DNA from: Prorocentrum cordatum
Taxonomy: Eukaryota > Sar > Dinophyceae > Prorocentrales > Prorocentraceae
DNA length: 64,000 bases
Assembly (NCBI GenBank): GCA_963575745.1
Contig: CAUYUJ010015704.1
Location: 761,840 to 825,839 of the forward strand
Direction: 5' to 3'
Numbering within the stretch: the stretch's first letter is position 1; the number at the start of each line of letters is the position of its first letter. The notes below the pieces were generated by a model. That model was not told the origin of the DNA and searched no databases. It saw only the letters and a program-made list of their open reading frames with translations. Below are positions 23,688 to 32,139 of this stretch, piece after piece. The translations under genes and the position numbers were made by a program.

Positions 23688-23856
23688 GATGGGGTCGAGG
23701 ATCGCGTCGCATCGCCGATACATCGGCAGTGTGGCTCGATGTGGAGCCCTGTTTTCTCCACGCCAGCGGTGCCGGTCTGTGCCGCTGCAGAAGTGACGTT
23801 GCCGGTGCATCGGCGACGCCTTGGCGATGCGGCGCGATCCTCCGACCCTGTCCATG
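23688..23856. mobile_element. Palindromic short element M5, copy 2 (best preserved)
   Basis: Left end TGGATGGGGTCGAGGATCGCG and right end CGCGATCCTCCGACCCTGTCCA are inverted repeats. Internal landmarks are GCATCGCCGATACATCGG, TCGATGTGGAGCCCTGTTTTC and GCCGGTGCATCGGCGA. About 169 bp, non-coding. It defines the family used to interpret the sequences flanking the large retrotransposon. Confidence 0.65.
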
Positions 23857-23859
23857 CGG

Positions 23860-24370
23860 AGAGCATCGAAGGCGGCCTCTTGCGGGGAGGGCGAGGGCCT
23901 GCGCCTGCCCCGAGTTGCATCACCTGGGCACCAGAGGGGCGCTCCTTCACCTGCCGCGGCTGCACGAGGCCAGCTGCCGCGCGCATCACACCGTCGGCCT
24001 GCGCGCTCGTGCCCGCGGATGGCCTCTCCCCCCCCCCGCACGCGCCCTTTGAGGACCGGTGATCGACCCCTCCTCTCTAGACCCCCCCTCTCCAGACCCC
24101 CCCTCTGCCAACCCCCACATCCCCGCTCTCGTCCCCGCGCCCCCCCCATCCCCTCTTCCCTCCTTTCCTCCCTCCCCCCTTCCTGCCTCTCTCCTCCTTC
24201 CTTTCTTTGTCCAGCGGAGTCGGATCGGTAGACGGAGGTCGGCGACGCCAGATCGGAAGAACATTGAAGAGCGGGTCGGGTCGGAGAGCGGGGTTGGGCA
24301 TAGGCAAGGCCTAGGCGAAGGGGAAGGAACCAGGGGGAGGGACGCGGGGGCCTCCCGAGTGGGGCAGGAG
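23860..24370. other. Stretch without a recognised gene
   Basis: C/T-rich from 24050 to 24215. No protein family or repeat ends recognised. Confidence 0.4.
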
Positions 24371-24375
24371 CAGAC

Positions 24376-24418
24376 GGGGTCGGACGGCGGAGGATCGCGC
24401 CACATCGCCGGTGCATCC
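24376..24418. mobile_element. Element M5, left part (interrupted)
   Basis: GGAGGATCGCGCCACATCGCCGG matches the left half of M5 and stops about 25 bp before the retrotransposon. The matching middle and right half appear on the other side, at 32043-32130. Confidence 0.5.
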
Positions 24419-24442: not shown

Positions 24443-24634
24443 CAGCATGGGGGTGCGTGCAGATGAATGATGTAAAATAGCGGGCCCTGTCGTGGACCCC
24501 AACCCTCTCGGTGCGTGGGCGCGTGGATAATCGCGCTTCGCCCCGCGGGGGTCCTTGCTCCGTCGTGCTTGCACTGTTTTGGGAAATTGCACTGCGGTGC
24601 CGAACAGCTTCTCTGTAGCTGCTCCGTTTTGGCT
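24443..24634 (+). repeat. Split direct repeat A1 (left terminus)
   Basis: 192 bp matching 31483-31673, with four visible substitutions and one single-base gap. Begins CAGCATGGGGGTGCGTGCA and ends GCTCCGTTTTGGCT. It probably holds promoter and 5' UTR, since the first ORF starts at 24669. Confidence 0.92.
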
Positions 24635-24668
24635 GAGTGGTTTCTCTTCGACCTGCGGCCTCGAGCTG

Positions 24669-25571
24669 CATGCGGCCCGGGTACCTCCCGCAGATCCTCA
24701 GTGGCCCGATAGCCGCGGGGCTTCTCGCGCTGAGCACGCGGAGGCAGCCCTGCCCCGTTCCCCCGGAGCCGCCGAGCTGCCCAGAGACGTGCGCGGAGGC
24801 ACCGCCCTGCGTGTGCCCAGGGGCGCCGGCGTGCGTGTGCCCGGAGCCTGCGGCCTGCCCGCCGACGGAGCTCGGCTGGGAGGAGGTGCTGATCTGGTAC
24901 GATGGGGACGACGTTTACCACGAGCGGGTGGCCTTGTGACCGCAGACGCACGCCAGATGGGTCATCCTGACCCCTGACTTTGACATGTATTCGGAGATGC
25001 TAGACGGCAGCGAGGGCGTCGACGGCGTGGTACGGATCGTCGGCCTGCGCCCAGACGGGCGTCTTCCCCGGCTCGACAAGCCCGCCTACAGGTTCAAGCA
25101 GGCGCTCGACCTGGACGCCCTGAAGGGGTACATCCGCGAGGGCCGACGCCTGGCCCTGCAGGACGGTGCCGCGGCGGGTGACCCGCCGATTGAGGTCGCG
25201 GACGTGGTGATGCCCAATCGTGAGGTGGTGCCGCTGGACAGCCTGGTCGGCGGCCGCTTCCTGCCTCGCCGCCTCCCCTTGCGCCGCGGCTCAGCGGCGG
25301 CGGCGGGTGGGGCCGACGACGGGCCCCCTGGCGACGCGGCTGCCGGCTCCGACGCGGGCGCGGCCCCTGCGCTGGCGGCTGTCGGCGACGACGCCAGCCC
25401 AGTGTATCCCCAGGCGGGGCCGCTGGACACGCCGCGTGGCCACGCGTGGGAACTCATGGAGGGCGGCCGCGCTGGCAACCTGGGCGACGAGGTGGTGCTG
25501 GGACCAGACGACTTCAGGCTCTCGGACTACGACGCGATGATCCTCCGCCGGGGGCAGGGCCGCCGGGCCGA
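24669..25571 (+). pseudogene. Element ORF1: Cys-rich N-terminus plus 'HER...LTPD' domain
   Basis: The ATG at 24669 is the first after A1. The protein starts with a hydrophobic stretch (SGPIAAGLLAL), then a Pro/Cys-rich segment (PETCAEAPPCVCPGAP), then a compact domain (GWEEVLIWYDGDDVYHERV ... VILTPDFDMYSEML ... DKPAYRFKQALDLD). An in-frame TGA at 24937-24939 interrupts it. A second family member at 48980-49700 reads through the same place with HERCLVYVPDG. The C-terminal part is Ala/Gly-rich. The frame then passes to the next one near 25560. Role unknown; by position it is part of the gag region. Confidence 0.6.
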
Positions 25572-26428
25572 GCTCGTCCCCCTTCACGGAAGTGGACGAG
25601 TTCGGGCGAGCCCGCCGAGAGGAGCTGGCCGACCAGCTGAGGCCAGCTGGGGCAGCTCCACTGGTTCCTCCCATGGGACCGCCGCCTGGGCCGTCGGCCG
25701 AGGCGCCCGAGGGTGCGGACGCCGCCGGTGGCACAGCCACGCCGCCTCCAGTGGCGGGGGACGCTTGCACGCTGTGGATCGACTACGATGAGCAGGGCGA
25801 GAGGTACAAGCCATACCGCAAGGCGGTGCAGGAGAGCTTCCACGTGCCTGACCAGCATTGGCCCCTCGAGGGCCCGTCGACGTACTTGCAGGTGATGAAG
25901 CACATCGAGAGGACGGGAGGTGACCCGCGTCTGTGGCTGCAGCTGTGGGCTCGTGCAAAGCAGGTGGACGTGAATGATCGGGTGATGCACGAGCTGAACT
26001 TTCTCGTGGATATGATGTTCTACGCCTCCACCTTTGACCAGCTGAATGCCCCCGCGCTCGCCAGTTTCGAGGTGCTGGCGCGACGGTTCCAGACCATCCT
26101 AGATGCGCACAGGATCCCGGGGCGAGCCCCGAACTGGCAGATGGCTCGCTTCTACAGTGGAGTGACCGCGGCGGTGGATGCCATCGCGCCCGAGCTGCGG
26201 CAGTACGGCGCGAAGCGGGCGAAGGAGGAGATCGACATGGAGACGGGGGCCCAGCGGGTTCGCGGCCTCCCTGGAGGTGGCGGTGGAGCCGGCGGTGACG
26301 ACGCGCTCGAGGGCACTGCCGGTGAGGGGCCAAGGGGCCGAGGACGAGGACGCGGTGACGGCGGTCGCGGGCGTGGCAGGGGCGCATTGCCCAAGGCCGG
26401 GAGCCCCGCGGCCGCCGAGAAATCATGA
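25571..26428 (+). CDS. Element gag-like protein with Arg/Gly-rich tail
   Basis: This open frame (SSSPFTEVDEFGRARREEL at its start) is continuous to TGA 26426-26428. It has no ATG at its beginning, so it is probably the continuation of ORF1 after a one-base frame change. Domains: acidic and Pro-rich start; central helical region (WIDYDEQGERYKPYRKAVQ ... HELNFLVDMMFYASTFD ... MARFYSGVTAAVDAIAPEL); C-terminal RGRGRGRGDGGRGRGRG, a typical RNA-binding tail. Likely binds element RNA in a particle. The stop overlaps the next ATG as ATGA. Confidence 0.65.
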   Translation, partial: SSSPFTEVDEFGRARREELADQLRPAGAAPLVPPMGPPPGPSAEAPEGADAAGGTATPPPVAGDACTLWIDYDEQGERYKPYRKAVQESFHVPDQHWPLEGPSTYLQVMKHIERTGGDPRLWLQLWARAKQVDVNDRVMHELNFLVDMMFYASTFDQLNAPALASFEVLARRFQTILDAHRIPGRAPNWQMARFYSGVTAAVDAIAPELRQYGAKRAKEEIDMETGAQRVRGLPGGGGGAGGDDALEGTAGEGPRGRGRGRGDGGRGRGRGALPKAGSPAAAEKS

Positions 26429-28696
26429 GCGAGGAGATCGCCGAGGGGAGTGGGCCCCCTCTCGGCGCGCAGCTGACTTGGCCCGGTGCTGGGCGCCTTC
26501 CAGCCTCTCGCGGAGAACGCCACCTGTTCCCTTTGCCGCGGCTGGAGGAGCCACGTGCAGCGCGTGGAGGCGGTCGTCTTAGCCGCGGGCTGCGAGGCCG
26601 CTATTTGCACATACGACTGGTCAACAGGGCGATCGACGCCCTGAACTGGTTGGTGAAGGCGGCCGGCTCGCCTGCAGCCGGCAGCGGCGGCGACGCGGAC
26701 ATCCGCAGCGAAGTGACTGCGCGCGTCGATGGACTGGTACGAGCCCAGGAGCCGGTGCCTGACGCGCCTTGGCCGAGAGCGGCCTACCTAGAGCTGCTCC
26801 GAGGTCGCGGGTCCTACGAGGAGCTGGGCCAGCCGAACATGGCTCCCTTCCAGCTCGGGCTCGTGTCACTGCCGGAGAGCACCCAGGACGCCCCGCGCCT
26901 GGAGCGGCTTCTCGACGCAGAGGGCTTACGTTTTCTGGAGGGTCGTGGAGAGCGGATGCAACGAAGTGTCCCAGACTTTGAACGCCTCCGACGGAGGGAT
27001 CCAGCGCGGCCTCACTTGGACCCAGCGTTCACAAAGGGTAGGCGGCTTCTGGTTCGATTCATGAAGAGGCTGCATTCCAGTGGCATGCTACGATATACGT
27101 CGGAGCCTGTTGAATTTGTCGGAGCCTTTTTCGTCTGGAAGAAGGGAAGACAGAAGATGCGGATGATTACAGATGCACGCCCTACCAACGGCTACTACCT
27201 CCACCTCGAGTGGACCTGCTGACGGCGGAGGGCCTCTCGCGCCTCGAGGTCGCCGTGGACGGCGACCCGTGCCTGCTGAAGGACTCGAGCTGGGGCATCC
27301 TGCCGGCGCTCCGCCTGTGCCTCGGCGTCGGCGACGTGGAGAACTGCTTTCACAGGATGGTGATGCCGCCCTGGATGAGCCCCCATTTTCGCCTTCCCCG
27401 CCCTGACTGTTAGCGAGCTCCGCCTAGACTCAGTGGAGACGGTGGAGGGCCGCGCGGCAAGCGGCGATGATGTGGTGTACCCCTGCTGCCGAGCCCTGCC
27501 TATGGGATGTTCGTGGTCGTTGTACTTCTGCCAGAACGCCAGCGCGAACCTGGCGAGGCAGTGCGACCTGCTGCGGGAGGCTCGGCTCGCGACCGACCGC
27601 GGCGAGCCCATGGTGTTCAGATTGGGCGGGGCTCGTGGGCAGGACCTCTGTCACTACGTGTGCGTGGACAACCTGGGCGTGCTGGGGCAGGACGCGAGTT
27701 CAGTCAAGAGGGCGCTGGGCGAGAAGGTGGCGGCCTTCAACAAGATGAAGCTCGACATCCATGAAGTGGAGTTCTTCGAGAGGAAGGGGTCGGCTCTCGG
27801 CGTCGTCGTGGACTGCGAGCGCCTCTGTACCTCCATCACCAGCAAGCGGCGCTGCCGCCTGGAGAGGGCTCTGGCCTACGCGTTGCAGCGAGGCAGACTC
27901 TCGGGCCAGGATTTGGAGTGCCTACTGCACGTACGCGGGCCTGGTGAGGCGAGAGGTGCTCTGCGTCTTCTCCGCCTGCTACGCCTTCGTGCAGGCCAAC
28001 TACTGGGAGCGGCAGGTGATGTGGGCGTCCGTCCGCGAGGAGCTCAGCTGCTTCCGGGGCCTCCTCGTCTTCCTCAGCAGCGACTGGGCGCTGCCCTGGA
28101 ACCGCTGTGTCACGGCGTCGGACGCGTCCGAGAGCGGCTTCGGCGTTGCCTCCACTATGGTGGGCGTCAGGGAGGTCGCTCGGGTCGGGCGCGCGGCCGA
28201 GCGGAGCCGCTTCCGCCTCGACCTGGAGCTAGCGCCGCGGCAGCGGGCTATGCGGCATGCGGGCTTCGTCGATGACGGCGGCTCCGGTCCTTGGCGCCCT
28301 TCGGCGCCCGAGAAGGCATCGGACGGCGCCTGGGCCATCGACGAGAGTTTCGAGGAAGTGCCGGCCGGGTGGCTGGACCAGGGACGCTTGGCCGTCTGCC
28401 GCAGCGGGACCTGGGATAGGGCTGAGGGCATCGCCATTTTGGAAGCCCGCGCAGTCCTGGCCTCGGTGCGCCGCCTCGCCCAGTCGCGGTGGGGCCACGA
28501 CATCAGGCGCGTGCATCTTTGCGACAACATGGGAGTCGTGCTGTCGATCTGTCGGTCTCGATCAAAAGAGTTCTCGATGTTGGCAGTCATCAGACGCATC
28601 AATGCGTACCTCCTAGCTCGCAACATCCGTCTCATCGTCCGCTGGATCCCGAGTGAGCTCAACGGGGCGGCGGAGGAGGCCTCTCGTAAATTTTGA
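26425..28696 (+). pseudogene. Element reverse transcriptase-RNase H, frameshifted
   Basis: The ATG at 26425 overlaps the gag stop. RT motifs in order: FVGAFFVWKKG and MRMITDARPTN (27115-27180), GVGDVENCFHRM (motif A, about 27325-27360), LPMGCSWSL (motif B, 27493-27522) and CVDNLG (motif C, 27661-27678; the second Asp is Asn). RNase H follows: VTASDASESGFGV (about 28110), ILEARAVLASV (about 28438), LCDNMGVVLSI (about 28516) and RWIPSELNGAAEEASR (about 28640), then stop at 28696. The frame changes near 27190, 27390 and 27920, so the gene is interrupted at least three times. The family copies element RNA into DNA and removes the RNA. Confidence 0.85.
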
Positions 28697-29116
28697 TGAT
28701 AACGCTTCCTGCTCATTGGCCTGGTGCATCCCGGCCAGACACCCAGGGCCCCAAGGAGCCCCATGGGAGCCATGTCGTCAGCAAGCAAACGTCGGAGCCT
28801 CTTTATCATCATCATGAGCAAGAATGTGAGCACGAGCTTCTGGGTAACAGTCATCATAAAGTACAAGAGGATAGCCAACTTCATTGCGGTCGTTCAGTAA
28901 AGCCACACAACGTTAGCGATATAGACGTTCGTGAACATCGTGAATTACCTCATGAACACCATGAATTACATCAGCAGCCAGCCTACTCCAGCAGCCAAGC
29001 TTGCACAGCGGAGCAGCAGCCAAGCCCGAACATCATGAATTACATCAGCCGCCAGCCTATTCCAGCTAATCCTGAACAAGACTCTGGGCCGTCGGTCGCC
29101 CCCTTGGCTCGAAGCA
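28697..29116 (+). other. Spacer between RNase H and recombinase with a 39-bp direct repeat
   Basis: 28954-28992 and 29028-29066 are 39-bp direct repeats (GAACAYCATGAATTACATC, then GCCAGCCTAYTCCAGC). A third partial copy, GAACATCGTGAATTACC, is at 28934. Composition is less GC-rich than the genes on either side. The large frame 28693-31305 runs through it but has no recognisable domain before 30568. Confidence 0.7.
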
Positions 29117-30571
29117 ATGAAGCGCGCCCCTGCCGCGCGGAAGAGCCGAGCCCTGTCGGCCCCCGCCCATGCGTCAGGGGCGCGGGCCCGTGGCAGCAGC
29201 GCCCCAGGGCTCACGCCCGCGGCGGCGCCCTCGCGCCTTTCGAGGGCGCGCGGACTGGCAGCCGCCCCGAGGCAGGCGTGCCACGCCTCGGCCCAGCCGC
29301 GGCGAGAGCGCGCCTTGAGCCTCCGGCCTGCAGCCGGCCTCGCCCCTCTGCCAGCGAGGCGCCAGGCAGCCGCGACTGCCAGGGCGCTGGAGCAGACGGC
29401 GGCGGCCATGACCGACTTCACGAGCGGCGACTTCGCCGAGCCGCCCGATCGTCGTCATCGGAAGCTCTCGCCCTCGTCGAACACTGGCACCACATCCGTC
29501 AGCGAGGGCGTCGGCGCCAAGCGCCAACGGACGCTGCTGGACCGGTCCAAGTCTCGCCTCCGCAAGTACCTCGAGGAGGCCATGGAGACACAGAGCGACG
29601 GGCTGACGTTGCTGGAGAAGCGGGCAGTGACAAGGCCCGTGCACACAGAGCACAGGCTGGAGGTGAACAGATTCAAGCAGTTCGTCGAGTCGAAGGGGAA
29701 GAACGCCCACAGCATCGGGGGCGACGTGCTGGACGGCCTTTTCGCCGCATACTTCGAGAGGACCTTCTTCGCCAGCGTGGAGGCCTCGAGGGGGGCCAAG
29801 ACGCTGGCGGGCTGGCTGCACCTCCACCCGGGCTACAACCGCCTGGGCTCCAGGCGGCTGCCCCGGGCCTGGCGGGCCCTCCGAGGCTGGTGCAAGTTGT
29901 GCCCCGGCCGCTCGCGGAGACCCGAGGCCCTAGGCGTGTGGTTTGGGCTCGTGAACGCCCTGGTGACGGCTGGGCGTCGCCGCATGGCGCTGTTCGTGCT
30001 GATCATGCTGAGCACCTACCTGAGGCCGGGACAGCTGCTGGGCACGCACGGCTCAGGGTTGACGCCGCCTACGCCCGGGGTGACGCCCCGCTGGTCGCTG
30101 CTGGTTCACCCCGAGGAGACGGCGAGCAGAAGCAAGATAGGCGACGCCAATGTATCCATCCTCCTGGACTCGAGTTGGGCGACGTGGATCGGCCCGGCCA
30201 TGGGAGAACTGAAGGAGAGCGCAGGGGAGGGACCTCTGTGGGCTTTCGACTACAGCGACCTGCTGAAGTCCTTCCGGCTCGCTGCGCAGGAGATCGGGGT
30301 GCCCAAGTTAGTGCCCTACCAAGCCCGCCATTCGGGCCCTTCCATCGATGCGGCCCGGCATCTGAGGACCCTGGCCGACATCGAGAAGAGAGGTCAGTGG
30401 CGCAGCGACAAGAGCGCCCTGCGCTACGAACGACACGCACGTCTCGCCAGCGGACACCGCCAGCACCCGATCGAGGTACAGATGTACGCCTCCGAGTGCG
30501 AGCGACGCGCCGAGGCGATCATCCTCCACGGACTGGTCGTCCCGCTGCCGCTGAAGGGCGGCCGCTCGTGA
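29117..30571 (+). CDS. Tyrosine recombinase of the element
   Basis: 484 codons from the ATG at 29117, uninterrupted. The N-terminal third is basic and Ala-rich. A SAM-like core-binding region follows (EHRLEVNRFKQFVESKG). The catalytic domain shows Arg I in STYLRPGQLLG (codon 30023-30025), Arg II in PYQARHSGPSID (30326-30328), and the likely nucleophile in SALRYERHA (Tyr codon 30425-30427), preceded by RGQWRSD in place of the usual GH/GW box. The His of the canonical HxxR is Tyr (30317-30319). Members join the circular cDNA to the chromosome. Its intact frame contrasts with the broken RT. The TGA overlaps the next frame. Confidence 0.85.
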   Translation: MKRAPAARKSRALSAPAHASGARARGSSAPGLTPAAAPSRLSRARGLAAAPRQACHASAQPRRERALSLRPAAGLAPLPARRQAAATARALEQTAAAMTDFTSGDFAEPPDRRHRKLSPSSNTGTTSVSEGVGAKRQRTLLDRSKSRLRKYLEEAMETQSDGLTLLEKRAVTRPVHTEHRLEVNRFKQFVESKGKNAHSIGGDVLDGLFAAYFERTFFASVEASRGAKTLAGWLHLHPGYNRLGSRRLPRAWRALRGWCKLCPGRSRRPEALGVWFGLVNALVTAGRRRMALFVLIMLSTYLRPGQLLGTHGSGLTPPTPGVTPRWSLLVHPEETASRSKIGDANVSILLDSSWATWIGPAMGELKESAGEGPLWAFDYSDLLKSFRLAAQEIGVPKLVPYQARHSGPSIDAARHLRTLADIEKRGQWRSDKSALRYERHARLASGHRQHPIEVQMYASECERRAEAIILHGLVVPLPLKGGRS

Positions 30572-31305
30572 ACGATATCCATTTTGCCGACGCGTTTGCC
30601 GGCGAGGGCGGCGTGGCCAGATCCATCCGCAGGTGCGGCTTCCAGGCAAGGGTCTGGGAGAAGCGCCGCGGGGGCCACGGCGACCTGACGCGGCCGCCCG
30701 TCCTGAAACGTTTGCTCTCAGACATCCGTGCAGGGATTTGCCGAGGCGCAATGCTTGCGCCTCCCTGCTCTACCTTCTCTATAATGAAAGCCCGCTCGGC
30801 CGCGATCAGAGACGTCGCGCGGCCGCGGGGCTTTTCCCGCAATGAGATGACCCCCAAGGATTGGGAGAAACTACAGACGGGCAACACATGCTTGCGTGCA
30901 GTGTTGAAGATAATCGCAGAGTGCAATCGTTCTTGCGTCCCTTGGATTTTAGAGAACCCTCATAGCAGCTACATGTTTAAAACGCCAGAGCTCCTCAGAC
31001 TCGCCAATCTACAGTGTGTATCAGTCGTCATTTCAGATTTCTGTCAGTTTGGAGCTCGCTGGCGAAAGCGAACCCGTTTCCTCGCAGGACACTGCCACCC
31101 AGACGAGCTCGCCCGATTAACAAAAACATGCGACGGGCCTGCAGGAATTTGCAGCCGCACGGGCAGGCCGCACCTCATCCTCGAAGGGGCATCGCCCGAA
31201 GGTGTGAGGTGGACCACCATAGCCCAGACCTGCCCACAAGCTTTGAATAGAGCGCTCGCGAAGACCCTTGTGTCTCAGGCCAGGTCCCTCTTCTTCAATG
31301 TTTGA
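30568..31305 (+). CDS. C5-cytosine methyltransferase-like domain of the element
   Basis: About 245 codons with the DNA C5-methyltransferase motif order: FADAFAGEGGVARS (motif I, AdoMet binding, about 30580), VWEKR (motif II), GDLT (motif III), MLAPPCSTFS (motif IV; catalytic Cys codon 30766-30768), WILENPHSS (motif VI; Glu codon 30952-30954) and CQFGARWRKRTRFLA (motif VIII-like). No ATG precedes motif I: the first in-frame ATG is 30751. The frame is open far upstream and overlaps the recombinase ORF one frame away. Expression would need a frameshift, a GTG start at 30568 or splicing. A target-recognition domain is not obvious. It would methylate DNA, possibly the element's own. Confidence 0.72.
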   Translation: MNDIHFADAFAGEGGVARSIRRCGFQARVWEKRRGGHGDLTRPPVLKRLLSDIRAGICRGAMLAPPCSTFSIMKARSAAIRDVARPRGFSRNEMTPKDWEKLQTGNTCLRAVLKIIAECNRSCVPWILENPHSSYMFKTPELLRLANLQCVSVVISDFCQFGARWRKRTRFLAGHCHPDELARLTKTCDGPAGICSRTGRPHLILEGASPEGVRWTTIAQTCPQALNRALAKTLVSQARSLFFNV

Positions 31306-31332
31306 GCGAACATCCTGTTTTGGGGATGCCAT

Positions 31333-31489
31333 GGGACCAGAGTGTTTGTTCAGACACCTGTAGCACCCGTCCGATCCGAGGTCGGTCGGGTTGCATCGCG
31401 ATGACTTTGCTGTGTTCACGAGAATCGTGCAACAGAAAACTCTTTATTGCTTGCGCAGTTCCCCGCCCCCCCGCGCTTAAGACAGCATG
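31333..31489 (+). repeat. Split direct repeat B1
   Basis: 157 bp matching B2 at 31740-31895. Starts GGGACCAGAGTGTTTG and ends GCGCTTAAGACAGCATG, sharing the last bases with the start of A2. Confidence 0.92.
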
Positions 31490-31673
31490 GGGGTGCGTGC
31501 ACATGAATGATGTAAAATAGCGGGCCCTGTCGTGGACCCCAACCCTCTCGGTGCGTGGGCGCGTGGATAATCGCGCTTCGCCCCGCGGGGGTCCTTGTTC
31601 CGTCGTGCTTGCCCTGTTTTGGGAAATTGCACTGCGGTGCCGAACAACTTCTCTGTAGTGCTCCGTTTTGGCT
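31483..31673 (+). repeat. Split direct repeat A2
   Basis: 191 bp, second copy of A1. The B1/A2 junction reads AAGACAGCATGGGGG, the reference sequence for the recombination core. Confidence 0.92.
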
Positions 31674-31739
31674 CCCGCCGCCAACCCAAGGCCTCTCTTT
31701 TTCTTTCCTTGCAATTTTCGAATGCTCGACTAATTTTCT

Positions 31740-31895
31740 GGGACCGGAGTGTTTGTTCAGACACCTGTAGCACCCGTCCGATCCGAGGTCGGTCGGGTTT
31801 CATCGCGATGACTTTGCTGTGTTCACGAGAATTGTGCAACAGAAAACTCTTTACTGCTTGCGCAGTTCCCCGCCCCCCGCGCTTAAGACAACATG
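31740..31895 (+). repeat. Split direct repeat B2 (right terminus)
   Basis: 156 bp matching B1. Ends GCGCTTAAGACAACATG. 66 bp of unrepeated sequence (31674-31739) separate it from A2. Foldback element F1 starts 9 bp further on. Confidence 0.92.
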
Positions 31896-32042: not shown

Positions 32043-32130
32043 GCGCGATCTGGAGTCCGATTTTCCCGTCCCGACGTCGCTGGTGCCTCGGCGATGCATC
32101 GACGACGATGCGCGATCCTCCGACCCCATT
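32043..32130. mobile_element. Element M5, middle and right part (interrupted)
   Basis: GATCTGGAGTCCGATTTTCCC, then GGCGATGCATCGACGACGATG and the end CGCGATCCTCCGACCCC. These match the middle and right end of M5 copy 2, and complement the left part at 24376-24418. Confidence 0.5.
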
Positions 32131-32139
32131 CGGGCGGAA

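Follow-up and report, generated by a model that had tools for sequence, protein, structure and literature searches.

The window, a stretch of 64,000 nucleotides (nt) of Prorocentrum cordatum DNA (contig CAUYUJ010015704.1), contains a tyrosine recombinase (YR) retrotransposon that extends from 24443 to 31895 on the forward strand, as do all features given below. Its coding part comprises a Gag-like region at 24985 to 26428, which occupies two frames in the window copy and a single frame in many other copies; the part of Pol encoding reverse transcriptase (RT) and RNase H, at 26425 to 28696; a low-complexity stretch between RNase H and recombinase, at 28697 to 29116; a recombinase open reading frame (ORF) at 29117 to 30571; and a predicted cytosine-C5 methyltransferase (MTase) domain at 30568 to 31305, in frame -1 relative to the recombinase. 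It is very probable that the MTase is best read as the C terminus of Pol and that the recombinase is nested within Pol in an alternate frame. A sequence-only reading of this locus had described a complete split-repeat YR element with a C5 gene after the recombinase; the domain does lie directly 3' of YR, but the Pol C terminus describes it better than a gene of its own.

We searched the genome (4.13 Gb in 21,875 contigs; G+C near 60%) with the MTase DNA and obtained 41 matches: 24 close ones, window included (92-100% identity over 708-738 nt), one partial match at 93%, 12 at 66-70%, and four short pieces. The 21 full copies analyzed as the close set are the window and 20 of the 23 other close matches. 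Gag, RT, YR, and MTase follow in that order in all of them, the four repeats are all present in 19 (the exceptions being L010 and L013), and the MTase is unbroken over its full length in 17. A search for copies with the same gene order and repeats had been suggested in the earlier reading, and the case raised there against a distinct lineage, that the MTase would be absent from other members, did not occur: the domain is present in 21/21 close copies and in 7/7 of the distant loci described below.

Pol starts within an ATGA that overlaps the Gag stop (26425 to 26428), an arrangement found in 20 of the 21 close copies (19 flagged, with L018 judged by eye) and in two distant families; reinitiation there may give the Pol start. 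In a protein of a related element, P0107, Gag and RT seemingly form one frame without the ATGA joint. A single Pol frame runs through RT, RNase H, linker, and MTase in L009 (1632 amino acids [aa]), L023 (1543 aa), and L027 (1656 aa), spanning the whole recombinase region before it reaches the MTase. The RT part of L009 matches RVT_1 (E value of 2.7e-4), and neither Pfam and NCBIfam profiles run on the window's own proteins nor PDB sequence searches with MTase, RT, and YR queries gave a useful match. Pol of the window is broken, with six indels of lengths not divisible by three between RT and MTase relative to L027 and an RT-frame stop at 28694-28696. The earlier description of the element as complete is thus accurate for its ends but not for its coding part, given these indels and the Gag spread over two frames.

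The recombinase of the window is intact, as the sequence-only reading had stated, with a 510-codon frame and no stops, and its catalytic domain also lies inside the Pol overlap rather than outside it. Across this region, the Pol frame has no stop in 18 of the 21 close copies and one each in L012, L015, and L021, while the third frame has 18 to 22 stops in close copies. We permuted synonymous recombinase codons, keeping codon usage, in seven of the 21 close copies. These shuffles predicted about five Pol-frame stops; none was observed in six of the seven copies (P of 0.0015 to 0.004), and one in L021 (P = 0.016). The distant loci behaved similarly. Three had no stops against 6.3, 7.4, and 11.9 expected (P = 0.0002, P = 0.0006, and 0/5000, respectively), L049 had none against 5.0 (P = 0.0023), L050 had two against 9.0 (P = 0.0017), and L051 had one against 8.8 (P = 0.0007). 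In L052, where the recombinase itself is interrupted and 453 nt were covered, there were none against 2.7 (P = 0.044).

The recombinase is also under selection, since variation in its catalytic part among 15 copies is concentrated at recombinase third positions (0.129, versus 0.045 and 0.043 at the other two); with base composition allowed for, none of 5000 permutations gave so high an excess. Eight of the 21 copies were used for the recombinase ratio of nonsynonymous to synonymous polymorphism (pN/pS). Seven copies (L009, L012, L015, L018, L019, L020, and L025) lack 75 nt of the recombinase, and the three inspected among the six other than L009 all have the box-I Arg changed to Gly. In these six, the third-position pattern is lost, yet the Pol frame over the recombinase has only two stops in total. 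Perhaps the deleted copies are a subfamily that borrows the recombinase of other copies. At least 84 relatives of the MTase were found among 7998 candidates scored; 22 of them have at least 35 residues ahead of the MTase, and among the 19 with at least 45 such residues, 13 show an other-frame image of the recombinase tyrosine box, a pattern defined after some of those proteins had been viewed.

Seven distant loci, picked by hand, extend the comparison to about four families with recombinase identity of 37-52%. L044, L045, and L052 form one group (MTase 81-89% alike) and L046 and L050 another (recombinase 91% identical over the C part), while L049 and L051 each stand alone. The MTase lies directly 3' of YR in the same Pol frame in all seven, although it is split by a frame change in L044 and L051. 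For three family pairs, identities were 50, 38, and 41% for RT-RNase H, 51, 42, and 40% for YR, and 53, 42, and 40% for the MTase; the three have diverged in step and have been together since those families split. This is an old lineage with conserved gene order, which supports that part of the earlier interpretation.

We assign the MTase to the C5-type fold with high confidence. The predicted model has a mean local confidence score (pLDDT) of 95.6, and the listed PDB matches and many viral structural matches of this model are C5 enzymes. The motifs quoted from the 3' ORF (FAGEGG, APPCS, ENP, and QFGxRWRKRT) are present in its translation, and the C5 rather than adenine type is upheld by the fold and by PHROG families shared with phage C5 enzymes. 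A Dam-like adenine enzyme was rejected on fold and motifs. A chance ORF was rejected as well, given 24 copies at 92-100%, the pN/pS values, the model confidence, and the relatives. In its own frame, pN/pS is 0.236, compared with 1.51 and 1.16 in the shifted frames, for 17 of the 21 copies (L020, L021, L025, and L026 were dropped for length, and L014, with one stop, was kept). Cys67 of the PC motif is invariant in all 49 aligned sequences, which speaks for catalysis, and from sequence and model it is reasonably likely that the domain is an active enzyme. A check against C5 profiles, suggested in the earlier reading, agrees as to the kind of enzyme by fold and phage families, but PF00145 itself barely detects it, matching 6 of the 49 relatives with a best E value of 0.025, which misses the curated cutoff. 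On the question of the Dnmt3 clade, fold comparison gives a tie and PF00145 is nearly blind to the domain. Residues 188-202 contain a nearly invariant C-x6-C-x6-H stretch, possibly a metal site, and phage relatives are without this form.

The lineage is also numerous. Genome-wide, there are at least 150 MTase matches (the best 150 of 12,480 candidates, all positive). Of this best 150, 102 lie in open frames of 700 aa or more, a length that exceeds the MTase and recombinase combined, and 51 in frames of 1400 aa or more. Recombinase matches were paired with an MTase match from the same best 150 in 43 of 68 cases, with the MTase positions on C8335, C19706, and C9668 being approximate ones taken from L044, L050, and L051. 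Twelve MTase matches of nearly equal score (on C2348, C4758, C12854, C14323, C15077, C15192, C16078, C16135, C16266, C16694, C17288, and C14297) lie in open frames of 1610 aa (11 matches) or 1515 aa (1 match) and are likely a recent burst of a related family. Six of 10 RT relatives are labeled Prorocentrum cordatum. Among the viral contigs scanned, 22 stretches came up and none was confirmed. Between-copy differences over the RT-to-MTase part of the 21 copies are most often A-to-G and T-to-C (about 0.014 per site and copy), ahead of C-to-T and G-to-A.

The repeats and ends are those of a split-repeat element, as had been claimed. Repeats A1 (24443 to 24618) and A2 (31483 to 31658) are 98% identical and B1 (31332 to 31471) and B2 (31739 to 31878, with similarity continuing to 31895) are 97% identical; they are direct and ordered A1-genes-B1-A2-B2 in the window copy, the arrangement of PAT/Ngaro/VIPER-type elements. 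RT-RNase H together with a tyrosine recombinase places the element among YR retrotransposons (DIRS order). The inverted terminal repeats of DIRS1-like elements are absent: no inverted repeats of at least 25 nt occur inside the element, the sole pair found sits in the flanks, and a further look covered the inside of each end. The ends proper lie at about 24449 (GGGGGTGCG) and 31892, and each is flanked by an AT core. Left ends start with GGGGGTGCG in 19 of 19 copies, and 18 of 20 right ends carry GACAGC, the window copy and L019 differing from it by one letter. The left end has AT before it in 14 of 19 copies and the right end has AT after it in 19 of 20; several copies are inserted within GAT repeats. 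The B1-A2 joint (31476 to 31496) has the same sequence as the right end joined to the left end and is likely the circle joint; together with the ends, it matches the prediction for recombinase-driven insertion of a circle. Where both are present (19 copies), A1 and A2 are 95-99% identical, with 97.7% in the window, which means that these insertions are not recent. Related repeats in the flanks, at 23795-23860, 24388-24417, and 32073-32138 (77% direct, 83% inverted), indicate that the element is embedded among another dispersed repeat.

Taken together, these results make it likely that the window holds one member of a large and old lineage of split-direct-repeat YR retrotransposons in which the Pol and recombinase genes share DNA. 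Pol would start at the ATGA overlap and stay in one frame across RT, RNase H, and a long linker up to a C-terminal C5 MTase of the small phage type; the recombinase, with its own ATG in another frame, would lie wholly within the linker-coding stretch and end at the first MTase codon. The linker frame would be kept stop-free most simply because a stop would sever the MTase from Pol. The RNA would be reverse transcribed and a circle templated by the B1-A2 joint, steps taken mostly from the published split-repeat scheme, and the recombinase would insert this circle at an AT core without target duplication, which the observed ends fit. Tethered to the reverse transcriptase, the MTase would most likely modify cytosines of the new complementary DNA (cDNA); the element's own cDNA as its substrate is a reading we hold only tentatively, at somewhat below even odds. 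A fuller proposal, plausible but still short of probable, is a deep lineage in which the roughly 1.4-kb recombinase gene, complete with its catalytic domain, occupies an alternate frame of Pol, between RT-RNase H and a C5 MTase of phage origin that was captured a single time and has been passed on from then onward. The overlap would tie YR to the MTase, making the latter a standing part of the cDNA-making complex, with the circle marked before insertion.

Several observations weigh against this interpretation. Because the seven distant loci fall into about four groups, their P values cannot be treated as independent. Residue constraint on the linker is weak in recombinase-defective copies (P = 0.0018 and P = 0.057), with none in the N part of the other 15 copies (P = 0.41); combined with the nearly stop-free frame, this suggests a linker kept open rather than kept in sequence. 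The MTase frame is broken in all 12 copies of the 66-70% group (L029 to L040). Five of the seven distant loci (L044, L045, L046, L052, and, by eye, L051, but not L049 or L050) have an in-frame ATG 7-13 codons ahead of the MTase motif, so that a separate start is possible there. Finally, the copies show no CpG-specific decay: C-to-T changes per site and copy are 0.0064 at CpG, 0.0109 at CpT, 0.0052 at CpC, and 0.0020 at CpA, and the CpG observed/expected ratio is 0.99 within the element versus 0.82-0.89 in the flanks. This neither proves nor excludes self-methylation.

It is possible that the Pol frame is open over the recombinase by chance, as shadow frames are in GC-rich genes. The region is indeed GC rich, with few T-ending recombinase codons, and the linker is of low complexity and weakly constrained. 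We nevertheless consider this very improbable, as shuffles that keep codon usage still predict 5-12 stops, the third frame of close copies is full of them, and the pattern is repeated in about four diverged families. Alternatively, the MTase might be a separate gene after the recombinase, starting at the GTG in CGTGA or at a nearby ATG, or it might be joined to the recombinase by a frameshift. The recombinase stop overlaps the MTase start as CGTGA in 20 of the 21 close copies, and the ATG of the five distant loci fits as well. Such a gene has no need of a frame kept free of stops over the whole recombinase back to RT, and none of the 21 close copies has an ATG at the MTase start, which makes this explanation unlikely.

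The identity and task of the enzyme can also be read differently. The element could be a variant of SymbioDIRS-Dnmt3 with a diverged eukaryotic Dnmt3, an improbable view given that PF00145, the profile used in PMC5890265, reached the MTase so poorly and that phage proteins which score above the PF00145 threshold have the PPC, ENP, and KxT motifs of the MTase as well; the choice between Dnmt3 and phage type is one made on PF00145 and motifs, with SymbioDIRS known by description. A substantial possibility, though not the better part of the probability, is that the MTase is retained for a different function, with host DNA or RNA as its target or with no activity beyond nucleic acid binding. The lack of CpG decay in the copies is in keeping with this, as is the RNA methylation that de Mendoza et al. 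discuss for long interspersed nuclear (LINE) elements (PMC5890265). The location of the MTase in the same Pol frame as RT points instead to a role on cDNA, and the invariant Cys67 speaks for catalysis.

Our results suggest that the C5 enzymes fused to the copying proteins of YR retrotransposons include a second one, of phage type, so that capture of such enzymes by dinoflagellate elements may exceed what PF00145 searches return. A whole recombinase gene inside Pol would also be an extreme gene overlap, one that has persisted through divergence of the proteins to about 40% identity. With at least 150 matches in one genome, some near-identical by score and others with a degenerate recombinase, natural variants are at hand for studying a methylation role in retrotransposition.

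Among known systems, C5 enzymes in the Pol of dinoflagellate DIRS elements have already been published, as has Pol/YR overlap in DIRS1 with the catalytic part of YR outside it (PMC5890265 and PMC3266345, respectively). Among the titles and abstract openings listed by the literature searches made here, none described a whole recombinase nested in Pol or a phage-type C5 enzyme in a retrotransposon. According to PMC5890265, SymbioDIRS-Dnmt3 of Symbiodinium shares with our element the A-coding-B-A-B repeats, a C5 enzyme in the Pol ORF with RT, a YR ORF, purifying selection, and a lack of CG depletion, and cDNA modification was proposed for it by de Mendoza et al. Its enzyme, however, is of the Dnmt3 class and detected by PF00145, and its recombinase is described as a separate ORF, whereas here the motifs are of the small phage type, PF00145 is near-blind, and YR is nested in Pol. 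DIRS1-like elements, as presented in PMC3266345, share Gag, YR, and a Pol of RT-RNase H-methyltransferase (MT), with Pol/YR overlap in half of 28 elements. They differ in their inverted terminal repeats and in a catalytic YR domain outside the overlap, and their MT is Dam-like according to PMC5890265, in contrast to the C5 type here. Ngaro/VIPER-type elements share the A1-B1-A2-B2 direct repeats, YR, and RT-RNase H; as far as their accessible descriptions go, Ngaro and VIPER have no MT domain, and these descriptions mention neither a C5 enzyme nor a nested YR. The enzyme itself most resembles small phage C5 MTases (Inoviridae UOF77800.1, Haloferax tailed virus 1 gp60, and Arthrobacter phage MrSmee gp54), proteins of 218-235 aa with the same PPC, ENP, and KxT motifs and PHROG families. 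Identity to them is 25-32% over part of the query, and the element MTase differs in its additional C-x6-C-x6-H stretch and in its location in Pol.
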